A stretch of DNA of 64,000 bases from Funiculus sociatus GB2-C1 (GTDB taxonomy: Bacteria > Cyanobacteriota > Cyanobacteriia > Cyanobacteriales > FACHB-T130), in NCBI RefSeq assembly GCF_039962115.1, contig NZ_JAMPKJ010000001.1, positions 62,001 to 126,000 on the forward strand. The letters run 5' to 3'. The first letter of the stretch is position 1. Every line of letters begins with the position of its first letter. Under the pieces are notes generated by a model, which was not told where the DNA came from, searched no databases, and saw only the letters and a list, made by a program, of their open reading frames with translations. Positions 35,376 through 49,611 of this stretch are shown here, piece by piece. Made by a program: the position numbers and the translations under genes.

Positions 35376-38300
35376 ATGCAACTCCACAATCAGCCCAATT
35401 GTTCTTTAGTTTCAGAACAAGCAATTGACCGTCACTTGTTAACTGTTGCTCGTGACAACCCTCTACCAGAAGTTATAGCTAGTCTTCAGTCTGGAGATTC
35501 GAGCCGGTGTGCTTTAGTGATGGAGGAGTCCCGGTTAGTTGGGTTGTTTAGTGAGCATAATATTATATCGCTTAACCTAGCTCAAAGGCATTTAGAAAAG
35601 GTTAAAGTTGCTGAGGTGATGACGACACCCGTTATTACCCTAAATATATCAAATTTACCAGATATTTTTATATTATCTTCATTATTGCAACAACATCAAA
35701 TTCACCATCTGCCTGTAGTAGGCGATCGCGATCAAATATTGGGAGTAATCACCCCTCAAAGTATTTGCCGAGTGCTGGAAAAAGAAATTTCAAATCTTAA
35801 TTCTGCATTTGCCAATTTGGAATCTGCGAAAGGGGAAAATTTGAGTAGCGTCACCCAGGATAGATCAAAAGGTAGCGAGAAAATCGGGCTTATAGCTCCA
35901 AACACAAGCCAACACCAGCAATTAGAAGGAAGCTGGCAACAGGCGAAGGAAAAATTAGCAATTACAGTAGAAGCGCCTGCAACTTACCTAAAAGAACCTT
36001 ATGAAACCCTATCAGTTAAAGTTGCCAAGGAGCAGAGTTTTAAGACTCTCTTAGTAAGAGAGAGACAGTATAAGTCGGTTGTTGACAACGTTAAAGAAGT
36101 ATTTTTCCAGACAGATACAGCAGGTTTCTGGACATTTCTAAATCCTGCATGGACGGAAATTACTGGATTCAGCATCGAAGAAAGCCTCGATACAAATTTT
36201 CTAAATTACATCCATCCTGACGATCGCCAACACAATCTAGAGCTATTTCAACTATTGATTAATGGAGAGAAAGACTATTGCAAACATGAGATTAGGTACT
36301 TGACAAAAGATGGTGACTACAGATGGATTGAGGTTTATGTAAGTCTGACATTTGCTGACGACAATGCGATATTGGGTACTTGCGGTACGCTGAACGATAT
36401 CACGGAGCGCAAGCAAGCTGAATTTGCTTTGCAGGAAAGCGAACTGCGGTTCCGCTCTTTAGTTTCCAATATTCCCGGCGTAGTTTATCGCTCTGGCTGC
36501 GATTCGGACTGGACAATGGAGTTTATCGGCGATGCGATCGCAGAAATTTCCGGCTATCCACCTAGTGACTTTATTCACAACAAAATTCGCACTTTCGCTA
36601 GTATTATTCATCCCGAAGACACAGCCAATTGTGAAAATTTAGTTTTGAAAGCCGTGAAAGAGAGACAACTGTTTCTCGCTGAATATCGGATTATTCGAGC
36701 AGATGGCAGCATCAGATGGGTCTATGATAGAGGTCAAGGATTCTTTAGTGATGATGGGAGCGTACTTTGGCTCGACGGGGCAATCTTTGATATCACTGAA
36801 CGCAAGCGAGCCGAAGCAGAATTAGAAAAGTCAAATCAGCGGACTATTAAAATTTTAGAAAGTATCACAGATGCTTTTTTTGCCCTCGATAAATCCTGGT
36901 GCTTCACTTACTTAAACTCAAAAGCCGAGCAGTACTTATTAAAAACCAGAGACGAATTAATTGGCAAATGTATTTGGGACGAGTTGCCAGAGGTAGCTAA
37001 TTCTAGCTTGATAAAGCAATATCACAAAGCTGTATCCGAAAATATTACAATTCATTTTGAGACATTTTATGGGTCATCAAATACCTGGTATCAGTTACAA
37101 GTTTATCCTTATGAAGATGGCTTAAGCGTTTACTGCCATGACATTACTGAGCGTAAACAAGCAGAAGTTGCACTGCAAGAAAGTGAGGCGCGATATCGCG
37201 CAGTTGTTGAAGATCAAACGGAAATGATCTGTCGTTTTTTGCCTGATGGAAGCTTAAGTTTTGTCAACGACGCTTACTGTCGTTTCTTCAACAAACAGCC
37301 TAAAGAGTTAGTAGGGCAAACTTTTGCTCCCTTCATGTTAGAAGAGAAGCAAGAATGGATAACACAAGAAATGGCTTTTCTTACCCCAGAAAAATCAGTA
37401 CTGAGTTACGAACATCAGGTAGTAATGCCAAGCAAGGAGATTTGCATTCAGCAGTGGACAAACCGGGCAATATTTAACGAATTTGGTCAGTTTGTCGAAT
37501 TCCAGGCAGTCGGTCGGGATATCACTCTACGCAAAGCCGCTGAGAAAGCACTGGCAAAGCGCGAACGCCACTGGGCAGCATTGGTTACAATTGGGCGTCG
37601 GTTATTGGTTTCGAACGACAAAGAAAGCTGCTACAAACAGGTGTTGAAAACGCTGGGGACGGTTTCGCGTGCCAGCCGGATTTACGTGTTTGAGAACCAC
37701 ACAGATGAGTCGGGTTGTCTGCGGATGAGTCAGCGTGCCGAGTGGTGCGGCGAGGGTGTCAACCCCAAAATTGACAATCCTTTGCTGCAAAACCTCTCTT
37801 ATGACGACTATTTTCCTCGCTGGGCTAACCAATTGGCGCGGGGGAAAATCGTTTCTGGGGTAGTGGCAAAATTTCCAGAGTCAGAGCGTCAGGTTTTAGA
37901 ACCGCAGGGCATTCTTTCGATTTTAGTCTTGCCGATGATTGTTAATGACAAGTTCTTTGGCTTTATTGGCTTTGATAATTGCTATGAAGCTCGCCCCTGG
38001 GCTTCATCAGATGTGGATATTCTCCGAGCGGCAGCAACGGCAATATCTATGTACCAACAACGCAGACTTGCGGAGTTGGCGCTGCGGGAGAGTGAGGAAC
38101 GGTTCCGGCAGCTGGCAGAAAATATTGATGAGGTGTTCTGGATGACTAACCCTGATAAAACCCAGATTATCTACATTAGTTCTGCATTTGAGAAGATTTG
38201 GGGGCGCACCTGCGAGAGTTTGTATAACAATCCTAAATATTGGGTGGAATCAATCCATCCAGAGGATCGCGATCGCATCGTTGCTCTCATTCGTAACAAT

Positions 38301-39914
38301 CCCCAACGGACTTTAAACGAAGAATATCGAATTGTGCGCCCCGATGGTTCGGTTCGCTGGGTCTGGGATCGCGCCTTTCCCATCCGGAACGCCGCCGGAG
38401 AAATCTGCCGCATCACCGGACTTGCAGAAGACATCACCGAACGCAAGTCAGCACAGCAGACTCTTTTACGCATCAGCGCCGCTGTGGAAAAATCCAGCGA
38501 TGCTATCGGGATATCTGGTGTAAATGCTGAACCCATCTATATCAATGAAGCTTTTCGCAACTTATTCGGCTACTCCTTGGATGAATTAGACACCTCTGGA
38601 GGTCTAGCGCTACTGTTCACCCAAAAAGCAGTTAACCAAGAGGTGTTCGCCACCGTCAACGGCGGTAAATCTTGGAGAGGTGAAGTAGAGATGCGATCGC
38701 GTAGCGGCTGCATCATCCAAATTTCCCTTCGTACAGATGCCATCAAAGATACTTCCGGTCAAGTTGTTGGGTCAATTGCCATCTTTACTGATATCACCGA
38801 ACGCCTGCAAGCCGAGCAAGCACTACGGGAGAGTGAGGAGAAGTATCGCAATCTTGTCGAACAAACCAACGATTGGGTGTGGGAAATTGATAGCAATGGT
38901 GTCTTTACCTACGTCAGCCCAAAAGCCTCTGACATTGCAGGCTATCAAGTTGGGGAAATTCTTGGTAAGACTACTTTCAATTTTATGTCGCCGGATGAGG
39001 CAAAGCGATTTCAGTCAGTTCTCAACTACTTTGTTTCTGCACAGCAACCCTTCTCCAATCTAGAAAAAACTGTAATTCACAAAAACGGTCACTCAATTGT
39101 TTTAGAAAGCAGCGGTTCGCCTGTTTTTGAAAGCCAAGGTGTACTGCAAGGTTATCGCGGCATAAGTCGCGACATCACTGAGCGCAAAAAAGCCGACTCA
39201 GAAATCCGTTCATCACTGGAAAAAGAAAAAGAACTCAACGAACTAAAATCTCGCTTCGTCTCAATGGTTTCTCATGAGTTCCGTACTCCCCTAAGCACTA
39301 TTTTGCTTTATACAGAATTGTTAGAACACTATCACCATAAGTGGGATGAGGAGCAAAAACGCCAGTATTTTCTCCGCATTCAAACTGCCATTAAAAATAT
39401 GACCAATCTGCTAAATGATGTTTTAATTATCGGGAAATCCGAAATTGGAAAACTAGAATTTAGCCCAATTTTTTTAAATATAGATGTTTTCTGCCGCAAC
39501 TTGGTGAGCGAAATGCAACTAACAGCAGGTAGTCAACAAACTATTATGTTGCAAAGCTCTAGCTGCTTTCAAAAAGTTTATGTAGATGAACAACTTTTGC
39601 GGCAAATTTTTACAAACTTACTTTCAAATGCTCTGAAATATTCTCCCCAAGGAGGTGTAATTAATTTTTCCTATTATTTTCAAAATGAAAAGTTAGTTTT
39701 TGAAGTGCAAGATGAGGGCATCGGTATTCCCATAGAAGACCAACAACATTTATTTGAAAGCTTCCATCGCGCTACTAATGTAGGTACTATTCCCGGCACT
39801 GGATTGGGGCTGGCGATAGTTAAAGAATGTGTTAAATTACACCAAGGAGAAATTAGCGTAAACAGTCAATTAGGGTTAGGCACGAAGTTTGTAGTCAAGT
39901 TGCCATATCAATAA
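35376..39914 (+). CDS. CBS-PAS7-GAF sensor histidine kinase
   Basis: This 1512-residue soluble kinase opens with a pair of CBS domains (about residues 10-135), which commonly bind adenine nucleotides. PAS domains lie at about 228-347, 353-480, 485-595, 602-722, 905-1026, 1030-1147 and 1152-1275, and a GAF at about 728-898. The kinase core has His1300 (SMVSHEFRTPLS), N-box NLLSNALKYSP, DEGIGIP and [11 protein letters not shown]. No membrane segment, so it senses inside the cell. The next gene (REC-GGDEF-EAL, 33 bp on) is the natural phosphotransfer partner. PAS2-PAS3 resemble two modules of the 1870-residue kinase downstream. No strong ribosome site is seen at the ATG. Confidence 0.9.
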   Translation: MQLHNQPNCSLVSEQAIDRHLLTVARDNPLPEVIASLQSGDSSRCALVMEESRLVGLFSEHNIISLNLAQRHLEKVKVAEVMTTPVITLNISNLPDIFILSSLLQQHQIHHLPVVGDRDQILGVITPQSICRVLEKEISNLNSAFANLESAKGENLSSVTQDRSKGSEKIGLIAPNTSQHQQLEGSWQQAKEKLAITVEAPATYLKEPYETLSVKVAKEQSFKTLLVRERQYKSVVDNVKEVFFQTDTAGFWTFLNPAWTEITGFSIEESLDTNFLNYIHPDDRQHNLELFQLLINGEKDYCKHEIRYLTKDGDYRWIEVYVSLTFADDNAILGTCGTLNDITERKQAEFALQESELRFRSLVSNIPGVVYRSGCDSDWTMEFIGDAIAEISGYPPSDFIHNKIRTFASIIHPEDTANCENLVLKAVKERQLFLAEYRIIRADGSIRWVYDRGQGFFSDDGSVLWLDGAIFDITERKRAEAELEKSNQRTIKILESITDAFFALDKSWCFTYLNSKAEQYLLKTRDELIGKCIWDELPEVANSSLIKQYHKAVSENITIHFETFYGSSNTWYQLQVYPYEDGLSVYCHDITERKQAEVALQESEARYRAVVEDQTEMICRFLPDGSLSFVNDAYCRFFNKQPKELVGQTFAPFMLEEKQEWITQEMAFLTPEKSVLSYEHQVVMPSKEICIQQWTNRAIFNEFGQFVEFQAVGRDITLRKAAEKALAKRERHWAALVTIGRRLLVSNDKESCYKQVLKTLGTVSRASRIYVFENHTDESGCLRMSQRAEWCGEGVNPKIDNPLLQNLSYDDYFPRWANQLARGKIVSGVVAKFPESERQVLEPQGILSILVLPMIVNDKFFGFIGFDNCYEARPWASSDVDILRAAATAISMYQQRRLAELALRESEERFRQLAENIDEVFWMTNPDKTQIIYISSAFEKIWGRTCESLYNNPKYWVESIHPEDRDRIVALIRNNPQRTLNEEYRIVRPDGSVRWVWDRAFPIRNAAGEICRITGLAEDITERKSAQQTLLRISAAVEKSSDAIGISGVNAEPIYINEAFRNLFGYSLDELDTSGGLALLFTQKAVNQEVFATVNGGKSWRGEVEMRSRSGCIIQISLRTDAIKDTSGQVVGSIAIFTDITERLQAEQALRESEEKYRNLVEQTNDWVWEIDSNGVFTYVSPKASDIAGYQVGEILGKTTFNFMSPDEAKRFQSVLNYFVSAQQPFSNLEKTVIHKNGHSIVLESSGSPVFESQGVLQGYRGISRDITERKKADSEIRSSLEKEKELNELKSRFVSMVSHEFRTPLSTILLYTELLEHYHHKWDEEQKRQYFLRIQTAIKNMTNLLNDVLIIGKSEIGKLEFSPIFLNIDVFCRNLVSEMQLTAGSQQTIMLQSSSCFQKVYVDEQLLRQIFTNLLSNALKYSPQGGVINFSYYFQNEKLVFEVQDEGIGIPIEDQQHLFESFHRATNVGTIPGTGLGLAIVKECVKLHQGEISVNSQLGLGTKFVVKLPYQ

Positions 39915-39947
39915 AAACTTAACAGGGTCAGGGAGAAACCGGCAAAA

Positions 39948-41687
39948 ATGAACAAGATTTTAGTTATTGAAGATGAAGAACCAGTTTTAGCTGGAATGAG
40001 CGCCCTTTTAATAGCTGAGAATTTCGATGTAATAGGCGCAGAAAATGGTAAACTTGGGGTAAAGCTGGCACTCAAAAACCAACCAGAGTTAATTATTTGT
40101 GATGTCACAATGCCGGAACTGGATGGATACGGTGTATTGAGAGAACTGCGTCAAAATCCAGCCACGGCTATGATTCCTTTTATTTTTCTAACTGCAAAAT
40201 CTACCAAATCCGATCTGCGTCAGGGTATGGAACTGGGGGCTGATGATTATCTTACCAAACCGTTTACCAGAGATGAATTATTGGGCGCGATCGCTGCTAG
40301 ATTCAAAAAACAAACAGTAATGTTTGAACATTACTCAACTGAATTAAAACATACAGAAGAAAAAGTCAATCACCTGGTATATTACAATAACTTGACCGAC
40401 CTGCCCAATCGCTTGTCACTACAAGAACAGTTCCATCAAGTGATTGCTCATATAGACAAATTACCAAGCCAATCTTCTATTAGTATTCTCTCTATTAGTT
40501 TAGATAGATTTAGCCGCGTCAACGACTCTTTAGGCTATACACTAGGCGACTTGCTACTTAAGTCTGTAGCCGAACGCCTGACAATGTGTGTTAGTAGCGG
40601 CGACTTTGTTGCTCACTTGCAAGCCGATATATTTGCAATTATTCTTCTAACTGATGACACAAAATCAGATGTTGGCGTTATCCACGACATTTTAAATACA
40701 ATTTCTCAACCTTTCATGCTGGAGGGTCACGAAGTCTTTATCACCTCCAGCATTGGCATCTCGTGCTATCCGTCGGATGGTGGTGACATTGACACTTTAA
40801 TTAAAAATGCTTCTCTAGCAACATTCGGGGCTAAAAAGCAAGGGGGAAATACTTATCAGTTTTACACATCAGATATGCAGGCTGACTCTGTCGATCAATT
40901 GACCCTAGAATCTAGCTTGCGCCGTGCCTTAGAACGAGAAGAATTTCAGGTATACTATCAGCCGCAAGTCGAATTAAAAACCGGAAAGATTGTTGGGATA
41001 GAAGCGTTAATACGTTGGCAACATCCAGAACTAGGGCTAATTTCTCCGGCAACATTTATACCATTGGCAGAAGAAACAGGCTTGATTATGCCCATTGGCG
41101 AATGGGTTTTAAAAACTGCTTGCGCTCAAACTCAAGCATGGCAAACCGCTGGTTTTTCTTCTTTACGAGTAGCAGTTAATTTGTCATGCAGACAATTCAA
41201 TCAAGAAAACTTGGGTGAGAGTATAGTCGAAATTTTAAATAACACAGGTCTGGCTCCGCAATTTTTAGAATTAGAAATTACTGAAAGCGTACTAACCCAA
41301 AATGAATCAGCAGCTATCAAGACATTAAATAAGTTGAAGCTTTTAGGAATCGAAATATCTATTGATGATTTCGGGACTGGATATTCTTCTTTAAGTTATC
41401 TCAAAAAATTTCCTTTTTCTACTTTAAAAATAGACCAGAGTTTCATCCGGAATATTAACACTGATGCTAGATGTAAAAACATCACTATGGCAATTATTCA
41501 AATGTCACAAAAATTGAATTTAAAAGTGATTGCTGAGGGAGTAGAAGCGGCAGAAGAAGTATCTTTTCTTTGCCAACATAATTGTGATGAAGTCCAAGGA
41601 TATTTGTTTTGTCGCCCTGTACCACCGGAAGAATTGGAAAAACTACTGTGGAAAGGTAAGAAACTGCCGATTCCTATTTTAATTTAA
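39948..41687 (+). CDS. REC-GGDEF-EAL response regulator (c-di-GMP phosphodiesterase)
   Basis: A 579-residue response regulator: REC (residues 1-118, Asp52), a degenerate GGDEF domain (about 145-310, signature changed to LQADIF so no cyclase activity is expected) and an intact EAL domain (about 325-570). The EAL catalytic set is all there: EALIRW, NLSCRQF, ELEITES, DDFGTGYSS, KIDQSF, IAEGVE and QGYLFCRP. It should cleave c-di-GMP when phosphorylated by the kinase encoded just upstream. The inactive GGDEF may be an allosteric GTP site, as in some family members. It converges on a GGDEF-containing operon. Confidence 0.92.
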   Translation: MNKILVIEDEEPVLAGMSALLIAENFDVIGAENGKLGVKLALKNQPELIICDVTMPELDGYGVLRELRQNPATAMIPFIFLTAKSTKSDLRQGMELGADDYLTKPFTRDELLGAIAARFKKQTVMFEHYSTELKHTEEKVNHLVYYNNLTDLPNRLSLQEQFHQVIAHIDKLPSQSSISILSISLDRFSRVNDSLGYTLGDLLLKSVAERLTMCVSSGDFVAHLQADIFAIILLTDDTKSDVGVIHDILNTISQPFMLEGHEVFITSSIGISCYPSDGGDIDTLIKNASLATFGAKKQGGNTYQFYTSDMQADSVDQLTLESSLRRALEREEFQVYYQPQVELKTGKIVGIEALIRWQHPELGLISPATFIPLAEETGLIMPIGEWVLKTACAQTQAWQTAGFSSLRVAVNLSCRQFNQENLGESIVEILNNTGLAPQFLELEITESVLTQNESAAIKTLNKLKLLGIEISIDDFGTGYSSLSYLKKFPFSTLKIDQSFIRNINTDARCKNITMAIIQMSQKLNLKVIAEGVEAAEEVSFLCQHNCDEVQGYLFCRPVPPEELEKLLWKGKKLPIPILI

Positions 41688-41691
41688 GGAG

Positions 41692-41720
41692 ATTCCTAAT
41701 AGCAATTAGCTATTAGGAAT
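41692..41720. terminator. Hairpin between convergent c-di-GMP genes
   Basis: A perfect 12-bp stem ATTCCTAATAGC/GCTATTAGGAAT with a 5-base loop lies within the 25-bp gap between the two convergent stop codons. It overlaps the last codons of the minus-strand gene, so it probably serves both directions. Confidence 0.6.
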
Positions 41721-43485
41721 TAGCAATAACAACTTTATTTCGTCCGTGTCGTTTGGCTTCGTAGAGTGCTTTGTCTGCGGCTTCATTGAGTTGCGTCGCA
41801 TCAACCACACTGGGAAAAACAGCAACACCACAGCTAAAAGTGACGGAAAATTCAGCCCCTTCAGACTGTTGCCGAACTTTGGCAAAGCCTTCCCGGATGC
41901 GATTGAGCACCTTGACTGCTGTTAGACCATCTGTATGCGGCAAGATGATAGCAAATTCTTCACCGCCGTAACGACCAGTAATATCAGTTTTACGCAAACG
42001 CTGCTGCAATAGACGGGAGAGACTTTTCAAAACGCGATCGCCTGTCAAATGCCCATAGGTATCATTAACTGACTTAAAATCATCAATATCAATCATGGCA
42101 AAGGCGACTGTGGTATTTTCCCGGCTAGCCCGTTGCACTTCAATACTTAATTGCTCTTTGATAGTCGTATGATTAAGTAGCCCCGTCAAACTATCGCGCA
42201 CCATCACAGAACGTAAAAGACGCGATCGCTGCACTCGCGGCATCACCGACGCCACGAGATGGTGTGGCAAAATTGGCTTAGTCAAAAAATCGTCCCCGCC
42301 TAGCTGAATCGCCGTCAGCTGCTTATTAAAATCAGTCTCTACCGAGAGAAACACAATCGGAATCCCCATATAAGCAGGTTGCTGACGGATCACCGATGCC
42401 AATTCCAAGCCATCGCAACCCGGCATATACATATCCATCAAAATCAAATCCGGTCTAAACTCAATCAAAGGCTGCATCACCTGCAAAGGATCAGCGATCG
42501 CTACCGTCATCATCCCCGCCTGCTCTAAAGTTAAGCTATAGAAAGTAGCCAAAGACGCATCATCGTCAACAATTAAAATTCGATACGGTTCTGGGGTTTG
42601 CGGTGCCGTCAGCGAATCCAAAGCATCAATCAACTCTCCGATATTAATCGGCTTAGGGAAATATGCCTTCCCACCTGCCCTCACTGCCTGCAAACGCGCT
42701 GTCAGATCGTTTCTGCAAGAGATAAATACAACTGGCAAAGGTTGTTCGCGCCCTTTCTGGATTTGGGTGATAGTTTTCGGGCCTGCCAAATTGTCTTCAG
42801 GGAACACCACATCCATGATGACTGCTGCTGGGGGTGTTTGAGCGATCGCGTCCTGAAGTTCAACAAACTCGTTAAAGGCGCGAACATCATAACCAAAACA
42901 ACCGATTTGCAACACTAAATCCTGTGACAAAAGTGGATCGTCTTCAACCAGAAAAATCAGCCGATTGTCTGACTCCGGTAGGGGAGGAAGTGTCAGCGGC
43001 AGGTTTACCGACAATTCTTGAGTGGACAGTAAACAAATTTCACTCGCCGCGTGTTTCAATACCCCTAGCAGCACCAAAATTTGTGCTTGCTGTTCCGAAG
43101 TTGGCAAATCCCCACATTCCAGCATCGCTTTGAAAACAAGTTCCAATGTTCGGGCGGCATTGCCTAACGTTAGAAAGCCAAATGTAGCGCCCGATCCAGC
43201 CAGACGGTGTGTTAAGTTGTGCAGCGTTACCAAAAGTGAGGAAGCTTCGGAGAGGGGCAGAGGCGGTGAGGCGGTGATGGGGTGATGAGGTGAAAAGAGG
43301 AATTTAGTATTATCTTTTCCCACTCTCCCACTCTCCCCCTCCTCCACTGCGATACTCTTTTCCAAACTTGCAAGCAGCTGATTCCACATAGCTTCAATCT
43401 GCTCAACTCGACTTGGTAGTTGCTGCGTGTAAGCAATACGTAAGGCGTTTAGTTGTTCTTGTGGATTTTTCACAGAATTAAACAT
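41713..43485 (-). CDS. Hpt-REC-REC-GGDEF diguanylate cyclase
   Basis: The 590-residue protein has an Hpt domain (about 1-155, His93 in LTHRLAGSGATF), two receivers (about 178-300 and 305-425; Asp in VIMDVVFP and LILMDMYMPG) and a GGDEF domain (about 430-590) with the intact signature RYGGEEFAIILP and DIDDFKSVNDTYGH. It is PleD-like and should make c-di-GMP when phosphorylated. Between Hpt helices a 35-residue low-complexity insert (about 45-80) derives from spacer-type DNA (43255-43350). It is the third gene after the hybrid kinase and a CheY-like protein, overlapping the latter by 8 bp. Confidence 0.9.
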   Translation of the reverse strand: MFNSVKNPQEQLNALRIAYTQQLPSRVEQIEAMWNQLLASLEKSIAVEEGESGRVGKDNTKFLFSPHHPITASPPLPLSEASSLLVTLHNLTHRLAGSGATFGFLTLGNAARTLELVFKAMLECGDLPTSEQQAQILVLLGVLKHAASEICLLSTQELSVNLPLTLPPLPESDNRLIFLVEDDPLLSQDLVLQIGCFGYDVRAFNEFVELQDAIAQTPPAAVIMDVVFPEDNLAGPKTITQIQKGREQPLPVVFISCRNDLTARLQAVRAGGKAYFPKPINIGELIDALDSLTAPQTPEPYRILIVDDDASLATFYSLTLEQAGMMTVAIADPLQVMQPLIEFRPDLILMDMYMPGCDGLELASVIRQQPAYMGIPIVFLSVETDFNKQLTAIQLGGDDFLTKPILPHHLVASVMPRVQRSRLLRSVMVRDSLTGLLNHTTIKEQLSIEVQRASRENTTVAFAMIDIDDFKSVNDTYGHLTGDRVLKSLSRLLQQRLRKTDITGRYGGEEFAIILPHTDGLTAVKVLNRIREGFAKVRQQSEGAEFSVTFSCGVAVFPSVVDATQLNEAADKALYEAKRHGRNKVVIANS

Positions 43486-43870
43486 GGTACTGAGACCACA
43501 AGCGATTAAGAGTTGCAGAAAGAGTCATCGGGTCAAACGGCTTTGCAATTACATCCAAAACGCCGAGTTGTTTATAGGAAGCTACTTCGTGAGTTTGAAC
43601 TTTGGCAGTCAAAAAAATCACAGGAGTAGTTAAAGTTTCTCTTAGTTCGCGCAGAGCCTTTAGCGTACTAATACCGTCCATACCCGGCATCATCACATCA
43701 AGCAGAATCAAATCTGGGGCAAAAGTTGGCGCGGCTTGAATTGCTTCACTGCCAGAACTACATATTTGCACAGTAAAACCGCCGACAGCCTGCAAACCCA
43801 AGCTGGCAACAGTTTGGATATCTGGGTCATCTTCCACAAACAAAATCCGGTTTAGAGGTGGGGTAGACAA
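43478..43870 (-). CDS. CheY-like single-domain response regulator
   Basis: A 130-residue lone receiver with acidic pocket (FVEDDPD), phospho-Asp58 (LILLDVMMPG), Thr in TAK and Lys in AKPFD. It ends 8 bp inside the start of the Hpt-REC-REC-GGDEF gene and follows the big hybrid kinase by 128 bp. It probably acts as a phosphate shuttle between that kinase and the Hpt protein, or as a sink (inference). Confidence 0.9.
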   Translation of the reverse strand: MSTPPLNRILFVEDDPDIQTVASLGLQAVGGFTVQICSSGSEAIQAAPTFAPDLILLDVMMPGMDGISTLKALRELRETLTTPVIFLTAKVQTHEVASYKQLGVLDVIAKPFDPMTLSATLNRLWSQYHV

Positions 43871-43998
43871 AGCGTTTCTCTAAGTTGTACTTCCAAAAAA
43901 GAGTCTGCTGAAGAAAACAAATTAAAAATTTAAGAGTTTCTTGGCGATTTTTAATTTGCATTTCTAATGTGGCATTTCGTCAGCGTAACTGGCTACGG

Positions 43999-46900
43999 TT
44001 ATTTAAGGGTATTTATCGAGTCACTGCGCCCAATTAAGGATTTGATGGTATCCAGCAGTTGCTGATTTGAGGTGCGGGATTTTACGAGTGCCGCAGCCAC
44101 ATGATTCGCGGCTTCAATACCAACTGTATTGGCAGAGAAAACCACTGCTGGAATTGGGACGCGAGCCTGATTGTTTAGGTAAGGTAGCAACTCCAGACCA
44201 GAACCATCAGGTAAACTTAGGTCTAGAATAACCAGGTCGTAAGTATTTGTCCGTAGCTTGTGTTTTGCCTCCTGAAGATTCTTAGCTGAGTCAATTTCGG
44301 CTAGGGTCTGCAAAATTTTTGAGACGACTTGGGTTAAATCCGGATCGTCCTCTACGTACAAAATTTGTAGCTGGGTGCCAGTTTGTTGTCGCACTGCTTG
44401 CCGGACTGCTGCCATCAATCGCTGTTGATCGATTGGTTTATCCAGCCAGTCTATCACCGCCAAGCCGCCGCCGTTGAATTCCTGCCGCCCTTGCTGCGCC
44501 TTGGCAGAAACCACAACAATTGGCAGGCTGTGGGTGTTTTGCGCCTCCCGCAACTCGCGGATCAATGAAATACCGTCTTGACCGGGTAATGCCAGATCCA
44601 CTGTCATTGCTGCATAGCGGTTTTGGCCCAGTAGCTGCTTGGCTTGTGCTGCACTATAAGCGATATCTGCGCTCAAACCCTCTTGCTTTAGCATTAGCCA
44701 GAGCAATTGGGCAATATCCGGGTCGTCTTCACACACTAAGATGCGGAGGCTGTCAGATGAGTTTGAGCTGGATACAATTGGCACAAGTGCATCCTGCCAT
44801 TCTGGTAAGTCAAAATAGAAGGTGCTGCCGACATTGGTAGTGGTGGTAAAGCCAATTTGTCCGCCGAGTTTTTCGACAATCGCTTTGCAAATGCTCAAAC
44901 CCAAGCCAGTTCCGCCCTTTTGACGGGTATCTGAGGAATCAGCTTGGGCAAACTTCTTAAAGATCCGGGAACGAAATTCTTCGGGGATGCCCGTACCTTG
45001 GTCGGTGATGGCAACGCGAATGAAGGAGGAAGAAGGCAGGAGGCAATAGGTAGGATAAATATTATCAGTTGCCAATAAGTCTGGACTTCTATCTTCTGGG
45101 TTTAAGCGGGAGACACAGACTTTGACTTGGCCATTGGGGGGAGAGAATTTGGCGGCGTTGGAGAGCAGGTTAGTGATCACCTGCATCAAGCGATCGCGAT
45201 CTACATTCACCATAGCATCCGTTAGTTGCGGCTCCAACACCAACTGCACGCCAAACTGTTCGCTATAGCCACGATTCACGTCTATTGCCTGCTGCACTAA
45301 TGGCATCAGCTCCAGCGGCGTAAGATGGAAATCCATTTTACCGGATTCAATCTTTTCGATATCCAAAATGTCATTGATCAGCAGGATCAGACGTTCGCTA
45401 TTTTTATAAGCAATGTCTACCAAGGCTTTCGCCTGTGGGGGAATTTCACCTGCCACGCCGCCACTAATTAAACTCAAAGAACCGCGAACTGAAGTTAGCG
45501 GCGTTCGCAATTCATGGCTAACAATTGAGACAAATTCGTTTTTCAATCGCTCTACCTCCTTGCGCTCAGTAATATCGCGCACAATTGCCAGCACTTCATC
45601 CGGGCCATTGACTACAACTCTAGCCTCATAAGTCTCAATCTTTTTGCCTTTAGGCATTTGATATTCAAACACTTGTGCTTTGTTGGTGGAAAGAGCGATC
45701 GCGCTATAGTGTAAAGCAGCTTGAGCTACACTCATGGGCAAAACATCATAAATATTTTTGCCAACAACAGCATCAGCACTCATCTCCATAGGATCGTTCT
45801 TAGCGGCTTTGAAATCTAGAAAAATGCCCTCTTTGTTCATGCGATACATCGCATCTGGAATAGCGTCTAGAAGGGCGCGGGTTTTCGCCTCGCTTTCGCG
45901 TAACACTTCGCTTTGGCGCAAGGCTTCCTCAGCGGCTTTGCGTTCAGTAATGTCCTTCATAAAGCAGTGATGTCCGATAAAACGCCGTTGCGAATCGTAA
46001 GCACAGATCATCACTAATTGCTTATAAAAAATAGAGCCGTCTTTACGCACACCCCTGGCTTCAGCTTCTACCTTGCCATCTTTGAGCATTTGTTCATAGG
46101 CAGCTATCATCTTTTCTACATCTTCAGGATGTACAGTTAAGGGCCATTCCATACCAATCATTTCTTCTGGTTGGTATCCAGCAGCGCTGGCGTAGGCTCG
46201 GTTGACAGCCAGGTAGCGCCCTTGCGTGTCTAAGCGCGAGATCCCTTCAACGGCATTTTCCAGGGCAGATCCTAAATCGCGTAATTCTGCCTCAGCAGCT
46301 TTGCGCTCAGTGATATCAAAAATCGCCCCATCAAGGCGAATTAATTCTCCTTCCTTATTAAGGATACCCTGACCTTTTTCATAAACCCATCTGACAGTTT
46401 CATCAGCTCGAATAACCCGATACTCGATAATGTAAGGCTGTTTTGCTGACACACCTTCTAAAATAGTTTTCTCCACCATCGCCACGTCTTCGGGATAGAT
46501 AATGCTGGCAAAGGTGCGTACTTGATTGTTAATAAAGTCACTAGCCGGATAGTCAGAAATCCCGGCGATCGCATCACTGATAAACTCCATTGTCCAGTTA
46601 GCATCACAGGCGCAGCGGTAAACAGCACCAGGAATATTAGCAACTAGGGTTCGGAATCTTTCTTCCCTTTCCTGTATAGATGCGTTTAACTGTATCTGTA
46701 CTGTCTCGGCTTGCTTGCGCTCGTTGATATCGTGGAAATAAACTGATAAACCATCGGCATAGGGATAAGTTCGCACCTGATACCAGGTGTTTAATGGTGA
46801 ATAAAATTCCTCAAACTCAACCGTGACTTGTTCGGTAGCAGCTTTGTGATACTGCGAGTAGAACTTGGAGTTAACAGCCTCTGGAAATTCATCCCATATA

Positions 46901-49611
46901 TTTTTGCCAATTAACTCATCCTTGGTTCTCAACAAAAGCTGCTCGGCTCGTGAATTTATGTAGGTGAACCGCCACTCCCGATCTAAGGAAAGAAAGGCAT
47001 CGTTGATGCTTTCTAATATCTTGTTGATTTGCTGGTTAGACTTGTGCAAATCCTCTTCAGCTTGTTTACGTCTTGTGATATCTCGGAAGTACCAAATTCT
47101 GCCATAATTGTCTCCTTCTGGGGAAAGCACCGCTGATGAGTAACGGTCAAAAACGCGCTCATCATTTAAGGAAATTTCATCGCGGCTAGATTCAGTTGGA
47201 TGAGCATATAAATACTCGACTTTGGCAATAAACTCTTGTGGCTGCACCAGGGTTGAGAGTACATAGCCTAGCAGTTGTCTGTCGTCCCCAGACTTCATCA
47301 CCTCGTCGGGGATTTGCCACAATTCTTTGAAGCGACGATTGTAGGAGGCGACTTTTCTGTTCTCGTCTATCACCAAAATGCCATCGAGGGCTGCTTCTTG
47401 CTGCGCCTTCAGAAGTGAATTAGTGCGTCGCAAGCTTTCTTGAGCTTGCTGGCGTTCGGTGATGTCGGTAGAGATACCGCAGACTGCATAAGGGACACCA
47501 GTAGCATCCTGTAGGGGAAACTTGACTGAAAGGTAGCTGTGTAAAACACCTTCGACAGGTGCGACTTCTTCCAACTCTATCGGAGTTCCAGATGCGATTA
47601 CTTGCTGGTCGGTGATATGAAAAGCGTCAGCTACTTCTTTGGGAAAAATTTCGTGGTTGGTTTTGCCGACTATCTGCTCTCGGTCGAGGTGGAATAGGGT
47701 TTGGAATAGACGGTTGACCAAAATAAATCGTCCTTCCCTATCCTTGACGTAGATCATGGCGGTGGAGTTATCTAAAATTGCTTGTAGTCGCTCCTCGCTA
47801 ACGCGCAATGCTGTTTCGGCGGATTGAGTACGAGCGAGTTCAGCTTGCAGCTGCTCGAAAAGGTTAGCTTGCTGAATAGCGATCGCTAGTTGTACGGAAA
47901 GCTGCTTGAGAAATTGTACTTCCCAGTTTTGCCATTGTCTGGTTCCATGACAGTGATGGACAATTAGCAGTCCCCATAATTTGGAGTTTGAAGGTTTAAC
48001 AGTTGCAAGGTTGGAAGTAGAACCATTTTCCCACCTTCCCTGATGCCAACGAGAATCCCTGCTCAATGTGGCAACGCTTTCTTGGAAAATCGGCACTACC
48101 AGATTGGCTCTGACCTGAAACCGCTCTAGCAATTGAATATGAGGCTGTTCTAAACCCGCTGTGTAAATATCTTCAATAGCTTGAATCTCACCTGTGAGGT
48201 ACGGGGTGGCAAGAGGATCACTAAAATTGGATAAGCTGGTGCGATCGCATGACTGGTAATTTTCCTGAATATTGATGCCTAATGTTGATGAAACCCCGAT
48301 ACCCAGCGATTCCACAACTACAGTACCACTCCCATCTGGCTCAAAGCGGTAAATAGCTGCTCGGTCGGCATGGAGAGCTTGTCGAACTTCCGCTACAGTG
48401 GTGTTGAGGACATCTTCTAGTTTCAAGGATTGGCGAATTCGCTCTTGCATTGCTCCTAAAAGCAATTCCCGTTGCAAGAGTTGCCGTAAGGCTGCTTCAG
48501 CTTCCACCCGGTAGGTGATGTCTGTTTGGATACCAATAAAGTTTGTCAGTTTGCCTTGGGGATTGCGTACCGGGGAAATCCGGAGTTCGTTCCAGAAAAG
48601 GGTGCCATCTTTGCGATAATTCCGCAAGACTGCACTACACTCTCTGCCCTCAGCAATTGCCATTCTAAGTTGAGCGATCGCTAGTTGATTTGTGTCTGTC
48701 CCCTGCAAGAAGCGGCAATTGATACCAATGACTTCAGCCGCAGCATATCCAGTCATCTGCTCAAAACGGGGATTGACATAAATAATTGGGTTGTCTGGCT
48801 GGGTGGTGTCGCTGATGGCGATGCCATTGCTACTAGATGCGATCGCTCTCTCCAGCAATCGTAGGGATTCTTCTTGTTGTTTGCGCTCGGTGATGTCCTG
48901 CGTCACTTTCGAGAAGCCGCGCAGATTTCCCTCCCTGTCGTGCAAAGCTGTAATCACTACGTTTGCCCAAAACCGCGTACCATCCTTACGCACCCGCCAG
49001 CCTTCCTTTTCGCACCGACCAAGTTTTGCTGCTAGTTCTAAATTTTGCTCCGGCTTTCCCAGCTCAATCTCTTCAGGCGGATAAAAGTAGGAAAAATGCT
49101 GTCCGACAATTTCTTCTAACTGATACCCTTTGATGCGTTCGGCTCCGGCGTTCCAGCTGACAACGTGTCCATTGGTATCCAGCTTAATAATTGCATAGTC
49201 TTTTACGCCTTCGACTAGCAACTGGAAGTTTTGCTCTCTCTGTCTGAGCGCCGATTTTGCCCATTTGCGCGAGCTGAGGATTTCTGTAAATATAATGATG
49301 CCGCCGATTTCACCTGCACTTGTCGTCCACGGTTGGGCTTCCCACTTTACCCAGTCCCCAGTCCCATCCAAACGCCTGATAAATTCTTCATCACCCTTTT
49401 CGATGGTTAAGAGTTGGTCGTTCCAACTTTCAGGAACTTCCTTGAACGTCTCATAGAGCGATCGCTGGCTGATATCCCCGCTTAGTCTAAAATCTGTCCG
49501 CCAGCGATCGCTACAAAGCAGGTAACGCATTTCGTGGTCGAACATGGCGATTGCAGCAGGCGATCGCTGGATAAATTTTTGCAGTAGCTCTTGGTTATCT
49601 ATGTGATTCAT
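43999..49611 (-). CDS. LOV/PAS/GAF hybrid histidine kinase with two receivers
   Basis: The 1870-residue soluble protein has nine PAS-type domains. The third (about 255-375) is LOV-like: GINCRFLQG with Cys299, NYRKDGTLFWN and FIGIQTDIT. A GAF (about 380-585) follows. It resembles a cyanobacteriochrome (IEDIYTAGL, LLERFQVRANLVVPI) but has Pro490-His491 where Cys-His would hold the bilin. It also has a 30-residue insert. Six more PAS domains (about 600-1350) lead to HisKA (His1366 in [12 protein letters not shown]), HATPase_c with intact boxes, and two REC domains (TVDLALPG, VILDLSLPD). It heads an operon with a CheY-like and an Hpt-REC-REC-GGDEF protein, so the predicted output is c-di-GMP. Confidence 0.9.
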   Translation of the reverse strand: MNHIDNQELLQKFIQRSPAAIAMFDHEMRYLLCSDRWRTDFRLSGDISQRSLYETFKEVPESWNDQLLTIEKGDEEFIRRLDGTGDWVKWEAQPWTTSAGEIGGIIIFTEILSSRKWAKSALRQREQNFQLLVEGVKDYAIIKLDTNGHVVSWNAGAERIKGYQLEEIVGQHFSYFYPPEEIELGKPEQNLELAAKLGRCEKEGWRVRKDGTRFWANVVITALHDREGNLRGFSKVTQDITERKQQEESLRLLERAIASSSNGIAISDTTQPDNPIIYVNPRFEQMTGYAAAEVIGINCRFLQGTDTNQLAIAQLRMAIAEGRECSAVLRNYRKDGTLFWNELRISPVRNPQGKLTNFIGIQTDITYRVEAEAALRQLLQRELLLGAMQERIRQSLKLEDVLNTTVAEVRQALHADRAAIYRFEPDGSGTVVVESLGIGVSSTLGINIQENYQSCDRTSLSNFSDPLATPYLTGEIQAIEDIYTAGLEQPHIQLLERFQVRANLVVPIFQESVATLSRDSRWHQGRWENGSTSNLATVKPSNSKLWGLLIVHHCHGTRQWQNWEVQFLKQLSVQLAIAIQQANLFEQLQAELARTQSAETALRVSEERLQAILDNSTAMIYVKDREGRFILVNRLFQTLFHLDREQIVGKTNHEIFPKEVADAFHITDQQVIASGTPIELEEVAPVEGVLHSYLSVKFPLQDATGVPYAVCGISTDITERQQAQESLRRTNSLLKAQQEAALDGILVIDENRKVASYNRRFKELWQIPDEVMKSGDDRQLLGYVLSTLVQPQEFIAKVEYLYAHPTESSRDEISLNDERVFDRYSSAVLSPEGDNYGRIWYFRDITRRKQAEEDLHKSNQQINKILESINDAFLSLDREWRFTYINSRAEQLLLRTKDELIGKNIWDEFPEAVNSKFYSQYHKAATEQVTVEFEEFYSPLNTWYQVRTYPYADGLSVYFHDINERKQAETVQIQLNASIQEREERFRTLVANIPGAVYRCACDANWTMEFISDAIAGISDYPASDFINNQVRTFASIIYPEDVAMVEKTILEGVSAKQPYIIEYRVIRADETVRWVYEKGQGILNKEGELIRLDGAIFDITERKAAEAELRDLGSALENAVEGISRLDTQGRYLAVNRAYASAAGYQPEEMIGMEWPLTVHPEDVEKMIAAYEQMLKDGKVEAEARGVRKDGSIFYKQLVMICAYDSQRRFIGHHCFMKDITERKAAEEALRQSEVLRESEAKTRALLDAIPDAMYRMNKEGIFLDFKAAKNDPMEMSADAVVGKNIYDVLPMSVAQAALHYSAIALSTNKAQVFEYQMPKGKKIETYEARVVVNGPDEVLAIVRDITERKEVERLKNEFVSIVSHELRTPLTSVRGSLSLISGGVAGEIPPQAKALVDIAYKNSERLILLINDILDIEKIESGKMDFHLTPLELMPLVQQAIDVNRGYSEQFGVQLVLEPQLTDAMVNVDRDRLMQVITNLLSNAAKFSPPNGQVKVCVSRLNPEDRSPDLLATDNIYPTYCLLPSSSFIRVAITDQGTGIPEEFRSRIFKKFAQADSSDTRQKGGTGLGLSICKAIVEKLGGQIGFTTTTNVGSTFYFDLPEWQDALVPIVSSSNSSDSLRILVCEDDPDIAQLLWLMLKQEGLSADIAYSAAQAKQLLGQNRYAAMTVDLALPGQDGISLIRELREAQNTHSLPIVVVSAKAQQGRQEFNGGGLAVIDWLDKPIDQQRLMAAVRQAVRQQTGTQLQILYVEDDPDLTQVVSKILQTLAEIDSAKNLQEAKHKLRTNTYDLVILDLSLPDGSGLELLPYLNNQARVPIPAVVFSANTVGIEAANHVAAALVKSRTSNQQLLDTIKSLIGRSDSINTLK

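Follow-up and report, generated by a model that had tools for sequence, protein, structure and literature searches.

A LOV domain among the sensors of a predicted phosphorelay to a PleD-like diguanylate cyclase in Funiculus sociatus

Three adjoining genes of the cyanobacterium Funiculus sociatus GB2-C1 raise the question of whether blue light, perceived by a LOV domain, is fed through a phosphorelay into c-di-GMP synthesis. They lie in a stretch of 64,000 nucleotides (hereafter referred to as the window) from an assembly of 6.47 Mb in 142 contigs. An earlier note on this DNA had described a hybrid kinase, a CheY-like protein and an Hpt-REC-REC-GGDEF protein, and all three were found where it placed them: the kinase gene (43999-49611, 1870 aa), the receiver gene (43478-43870, 130 aa, TTG start) and the cyclase gene (41713-43485, 590 aa) follow one another in this order, co-directional on the minus strand. 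The first two are separated by 128 bp with no terminator-like site inside, and the last two overlap by 8 bp, exactly the length shared by each of the 14 loci compared. Fewer promoter-like and terminator-like matches turned up than in shuffled sequences, and they were not counted as positive evidence. We infer that the three genes are co-transcribed.

The open reading frame, Pfam analysis and site conservation together gave the architecture PAS-PAS-LOV-GAF-PAS(x6)-HisKA(H1366)-HATPase-RECa(D1672)-RECb(D1797) for the kinase. HisKA, HATPase, two RECs, one GAF and several PAS domains were recognized by Pfam. Besides LOV, the protein thus has some eight additional PAS domains together with a GAF of cyanobacteriochrome type, which were absent from the earlier note. 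The kinase has no strongly hydrophobic 19-residue stretch (best value 1.36) and is a soluble protein with no transmembrane segment; neither CHASE nor Hpt was found in it.

The LOV domain was delimited to residues 250-372 (48496-48864, minus strand) by phmmer matches to LOV structures in the PDB and by motif positions. Solved LOV proteins were the top matches, with E-values from 1e-38 to 1e-26, far beyond chance, and the motifs quoted earlier, including the numbering of Cys299, proved correct. The GxNCRFLQ motif of LOV photoreceptor domains is present, with NCRFLQ beginning at residue 298, and the adduct cysteine and the FMN-contact Asn/Gln set are complete (N298, Cys299, R300, Q303, N331, N341 and Q362). 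The motif is absent from every other PAS domain of the window kinase. Comparison of the window with its nearest orthologue, a short distance with few substitutions, gave a LOV dN/dS of 0.12, consistent with purifying selection on the full FMN set. The domain is therefore very probably photochemically active, with predicted FMN binding and adduct formation at Cys299.

The GAF domain next to it (residues 385-600; 47812-48459, minus strand) belongs with the cyanobacteriochromes by phmmer matches to their structures, by the orthologue alignment and by predicted fold (model mean pLDDT 74.8). It shares sequence and fold family with DXCF-type domains such as that of TePixJ but, unlike them, has lost the chromophore cysteines: both the DXCF cysteine and the canonical cysteine are missing, EQPHIQL replacing PCHIEL. 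The GAF domains of the window and of locus L091 have two insertions, and both bilin cysteines are gone in these two. The orthologues keep both, as DPCF...PCH in L092, L093 and L094 and as DRCF...PCH in L096. In the comparison with the nearest orthologue, the window GAF has a dN/dS of 0.30, again from few substitutions. With both cysteines lost, only blue light would be left to the window protein, so the proposed control by light colour is unsupported for this copy. It is conceivable, though we put it at somewhat under an even chance, that the clade is a two-colour system in which blue and a second colour, sensed by an intact LOV and an intact DXCF-type GAF, would feed a single phosphorelay to c-di-GMP, the second colour having been dropped in the window lineage to leave it blue-only. 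The L091 region is 94-100% identical to the window at the protein level and belongs to a genome (G002) listed as another genus; the same genome carries L094 as another, diverged operon copy.

Downstream of the kinase, Pfam and acceptor conservation identified the product of 43478-43870 as a stand-alone receiver and predicted relay carrier; its acceptor, Asp58 in the window protein, is conserved in 16 of 16 loci. The protein encoded at 41713-43485 was assigned by Pfam (two RECs and GGDEF), conservation and an AlphaFold model (pLDDT 83.7) as a PleD-like diguanylate cyclase, Hpt(His93)-REC1(D225)-REC2(D351)-GGDEF. PleD is its best PDB match, and the intact GGEEF that had been reported for it was located at residues 507-511, with an equally intact I-site, R498xxD501. 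The Hpt domain scores slightly under the Pfam cut-off (21.4 versus 24.6 bits); its region is modelled as helices and His93 is invariant in 17 orthologues. In the window, every phospho-site checked is intact, namely those of HisKA, the kinase receivers, the small receiver, the Hpt domain and the cyclase receivers. Across up to 17 loci the relay sites, GGEEF and RxxD are nearly invariant, the exceptions being three kinases without C-terminal receivers and one locus with a changed REC1. The small receiver is kept where the kinase has no receivers of its own (G100, G123 and G229), and both kinase receivers are present where the small one is missing (G008); we therefore suggest that the two kinds may stand in for each other, either one carrying the phosphate. 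Four gammaproteobacterial homologues (from Pseudomonas, Marinobacter, Hahella and one other) have lost the Hpt histidine together with the acid-pocket residues and Lys of REC1, with REC2 intact. This joint loss links Hpt with REC1, and REC2 with the output, so that REC2 is the probable output switch of the cyclase.

The cyclase was detected at strict thresholds in 7 of 60 relatives and in 14 of 390 genomes of the class, and kinase, receiver and Hpt-cyclase co-occur in distant cyanobacterial families. Directly upstream of the cyclase, 16 loci from several families have the same kinase core (HisKA-HATPase, in most cases with REC-REC). LOV was found in six of these 16 operons: that of the window, two in G002 and one each in G003, G004 and G007, the kinase motif of the last reading NCKFLQ. 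In the cyclase tree the LOV operons are confined to one clade (support 99/94), in which six of the seven members have LOV and the seventh, G017, has kept the operon without it. This is most simply explained by a single gain and a single loss of LOV. Since LOV is restricted to a minority of operons in a single clade, the relay is older than the LOV domain, which is a late accessory to a system able to run without light. Nor can LOV be the input that defines the system, as it is missing from the majority of operons that share this kinase core and cyclase. The receiver and Hpt-cyclase pair is the conserved core with an exchangeable sensory part, and light would therefore modulate the signal rather than create it. 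In G145 the receiver-cyclase pair occurs without an adjoining kinase, which indicates that the cyclase can have other partners.

The explanation that on balance fits best is that a phosphorelay controls the PleD-type cyclase and that LOV is one added sensor among about ten modules. In its first step, LOV is predicted to bind FMN and, on blue light, to form the Cys299 adduct. The adduct would then shift the kinase/phosphatase balance of HisKA in one direction or the other. From H1366 the phosphate would pass to an aspartate of the kinase receivers or of the small receiver, then to His93 of Hpt and on to REC1/REC2 of the cyclase; the intact sites and the co-occurrence of the genes make it likely that the kinase does drive this cyclase. 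By analogy with PleD, phosphorylated REC2 would bring about GGDEF dimerisation and c-di-GMP synthesis, capped by the I-site. The earlier chain from blue light through the kinase to c-di-GMP is thus well supported in its kinase-cyclase wiring, for which the conservation of gene order and the intactness of the phospho-sites speak, and not in making LOV the defining input. Motility or biofilm as the output is a guess.

Several observations weigh against this explanation: nine other sensory modules could dominate, G017 lacks LOV, the G145 pair lacks a kinase, and in Anabaena sp. PCC 7120 deletion of PAS2 from the related kinase CdgK left cell size unchanged (PMC9927289). The last result means that a kinase of this sort can do without its LOV domain under the conditions of that work. 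Together with the prevalence of LOV-less operons in this cyclase family and the loss of cysteines from the neighbouring photosensor-type GAF, it favours a reading in which the kinase drives the cyclase but the LOV domain is vestigial or is an FMN module of redox or structural function, the other PAS domains giving the real input and light being irrelevant in the cell. We consider this rather unlikely, given that the full LOV set including the cysteine is kept in six operons of one clade and is under purifying selection, at a short distance and with few substitutions; the same two facts make LOV plausible as one input to the kinase. Still less probable is that the targets of the LOV kinase lie elsewhere and other kinases act on the Hpt-cyclase, adjacency being incidental, as the kinase-free pair of G145 and the Pseudomonas and Marinobacter cyclase homologues with no relative of the window kinase alongside might suggest, against the recurrence of the same kinase core directly upstream of the cyclase in 16 loci of several families. 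As a physiologically important input, blue light is a candidate with a slightly better than even chance.

Convergent with the cyclase gene, a CBS-PAS-GAF kinase gene and then a REC-GGDEF-EAL gene occupy 35376-41687 on the plus strand. The GGDEF of the latter is degenerate (QADIF) and its EAL looks intact, so this protein, encoded tail to tail with the cyclase, is likely a phosphodiesterase. Among the loci compared these genes are adjacent only in the near-identical L091, and although considered as functional partners they were for that reason not counted with the system. Five LOV proteins were found in the genome of the window, G000, and two of them adjoin c-di-GMP enzymes. On contig C11 (L124:4484-12989, minus strand) a second LOV kinase of 2222 aa, REC-PAS...LOV...GAF...HisKA-HATPase-REC, has a gene overlapping one for REC-GGDEF-EAL. 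An 809-aa kinase on C48 (L127:7504-9933) has LOV and a GAF keeping DPCF...QCH and is a candidate dual photosensor. In Pseudanabaena mucicola a LOV-GAF-HisKA-HATPase-REC-Hpt kinase adjoins REC-GGDEF (L087:7160-11882), a compact pair similar to CdgK-CdgS. At L133:1523-5876 (minus strand) a protein combining a LOV motif with a DXCF...C[HY] motif of cyanobacteriochrome type overlaps a gene with an EAL-like motif.

The window system shows that cyanobacteria connect LOV hybrid kinases to c-di-GMP enzymes through at least two distinct layouts of the relay. The orthologue series, with or without LOV and with or without the bilin cysteines, provides a natural set for asking what photosensors add. Among known proteins, PleD of Caulobacter shares REC-REC-GGDEF and the I-site with the window cyclase, which differs in its N-terminal Hpt and in keeping the acceptor aspartate in both receivers. 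Cyanobacterial LOV control of c-di-GMP is represented by SL2, a LOV-GGDEF-EAL protein of Synechococcus elongatus; it differs from the window system in being a one-component phosphodiesterase without a phosphorelay (PMC8846402). Its motif set also occurs in proteins of relatives.

The closest parallel is CdgK-CdgS (All2875-All2874) of Anabaena, in which one operon encodes a hybrid kinase with multiple sensors and a cyclase of the REC-GGDEF type; the output of this system is cell size and heterocyst frequency (PMC9927289). Its relay, H1149-D1604-H1757-D60, has support from mutants, joined by phosphotransfer data for the kinase part (PMC9927289), and this genetic and biochemical backing of an analogous His-Asp-His-Asp chain (the biochemistry for the kinase steps) lends support to the kinase-cyclase relay proposed here. 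CdgK PAS2 is reported to bind FMN, the LOV work being cited there as Narikawa et al. 2006 (PMC9927289). Both systems join a giant multi-PAS/GAF hybrid kinase with an FMN-binding PAS by phosphorelay to a diguanylate cyclase, FMN binding and relay being predicted in the window, and in both the LOV kinase gene adjoins the cyclase gene. They differ in that CdgK has transmembrane and CHASE regions as input and its own C-terminal Hpt and is partnered by a REC-GGDEF protein, whereas the window has a soluble kinase, a separate receiver and an Hpt placed on the PleD-like cyclase. The CdgK-CdgS arrangement itself (LOV, GAF, HK-REC-REC-Hpt, then REC-GGDEF) was recovered through LOV matches at loci L128 and L129, the latter with CHASE (PF03924); CHASE2, used as a marker of CdgK orthologues, had no match at a LOV site. 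The L128 and L129 kinases are 28-39% identical to the window kinase over most alignments, and up to 53% around LOV, and this low identity sets the window system apart as a lineage of its own within the kind. Lacking transmembrane and CHASE regions, it offers a soluble model for the question raised for CdgK-CdgS (PMC9927289) of which signal acts through such giant kinases to set c-di-GMP. The earlier view that the chain had not been described therefore holds only for the exact relay layout, which is what is new here; the concept is not, CdgK-CdgS being already a chain of this kind (PMC9927289).
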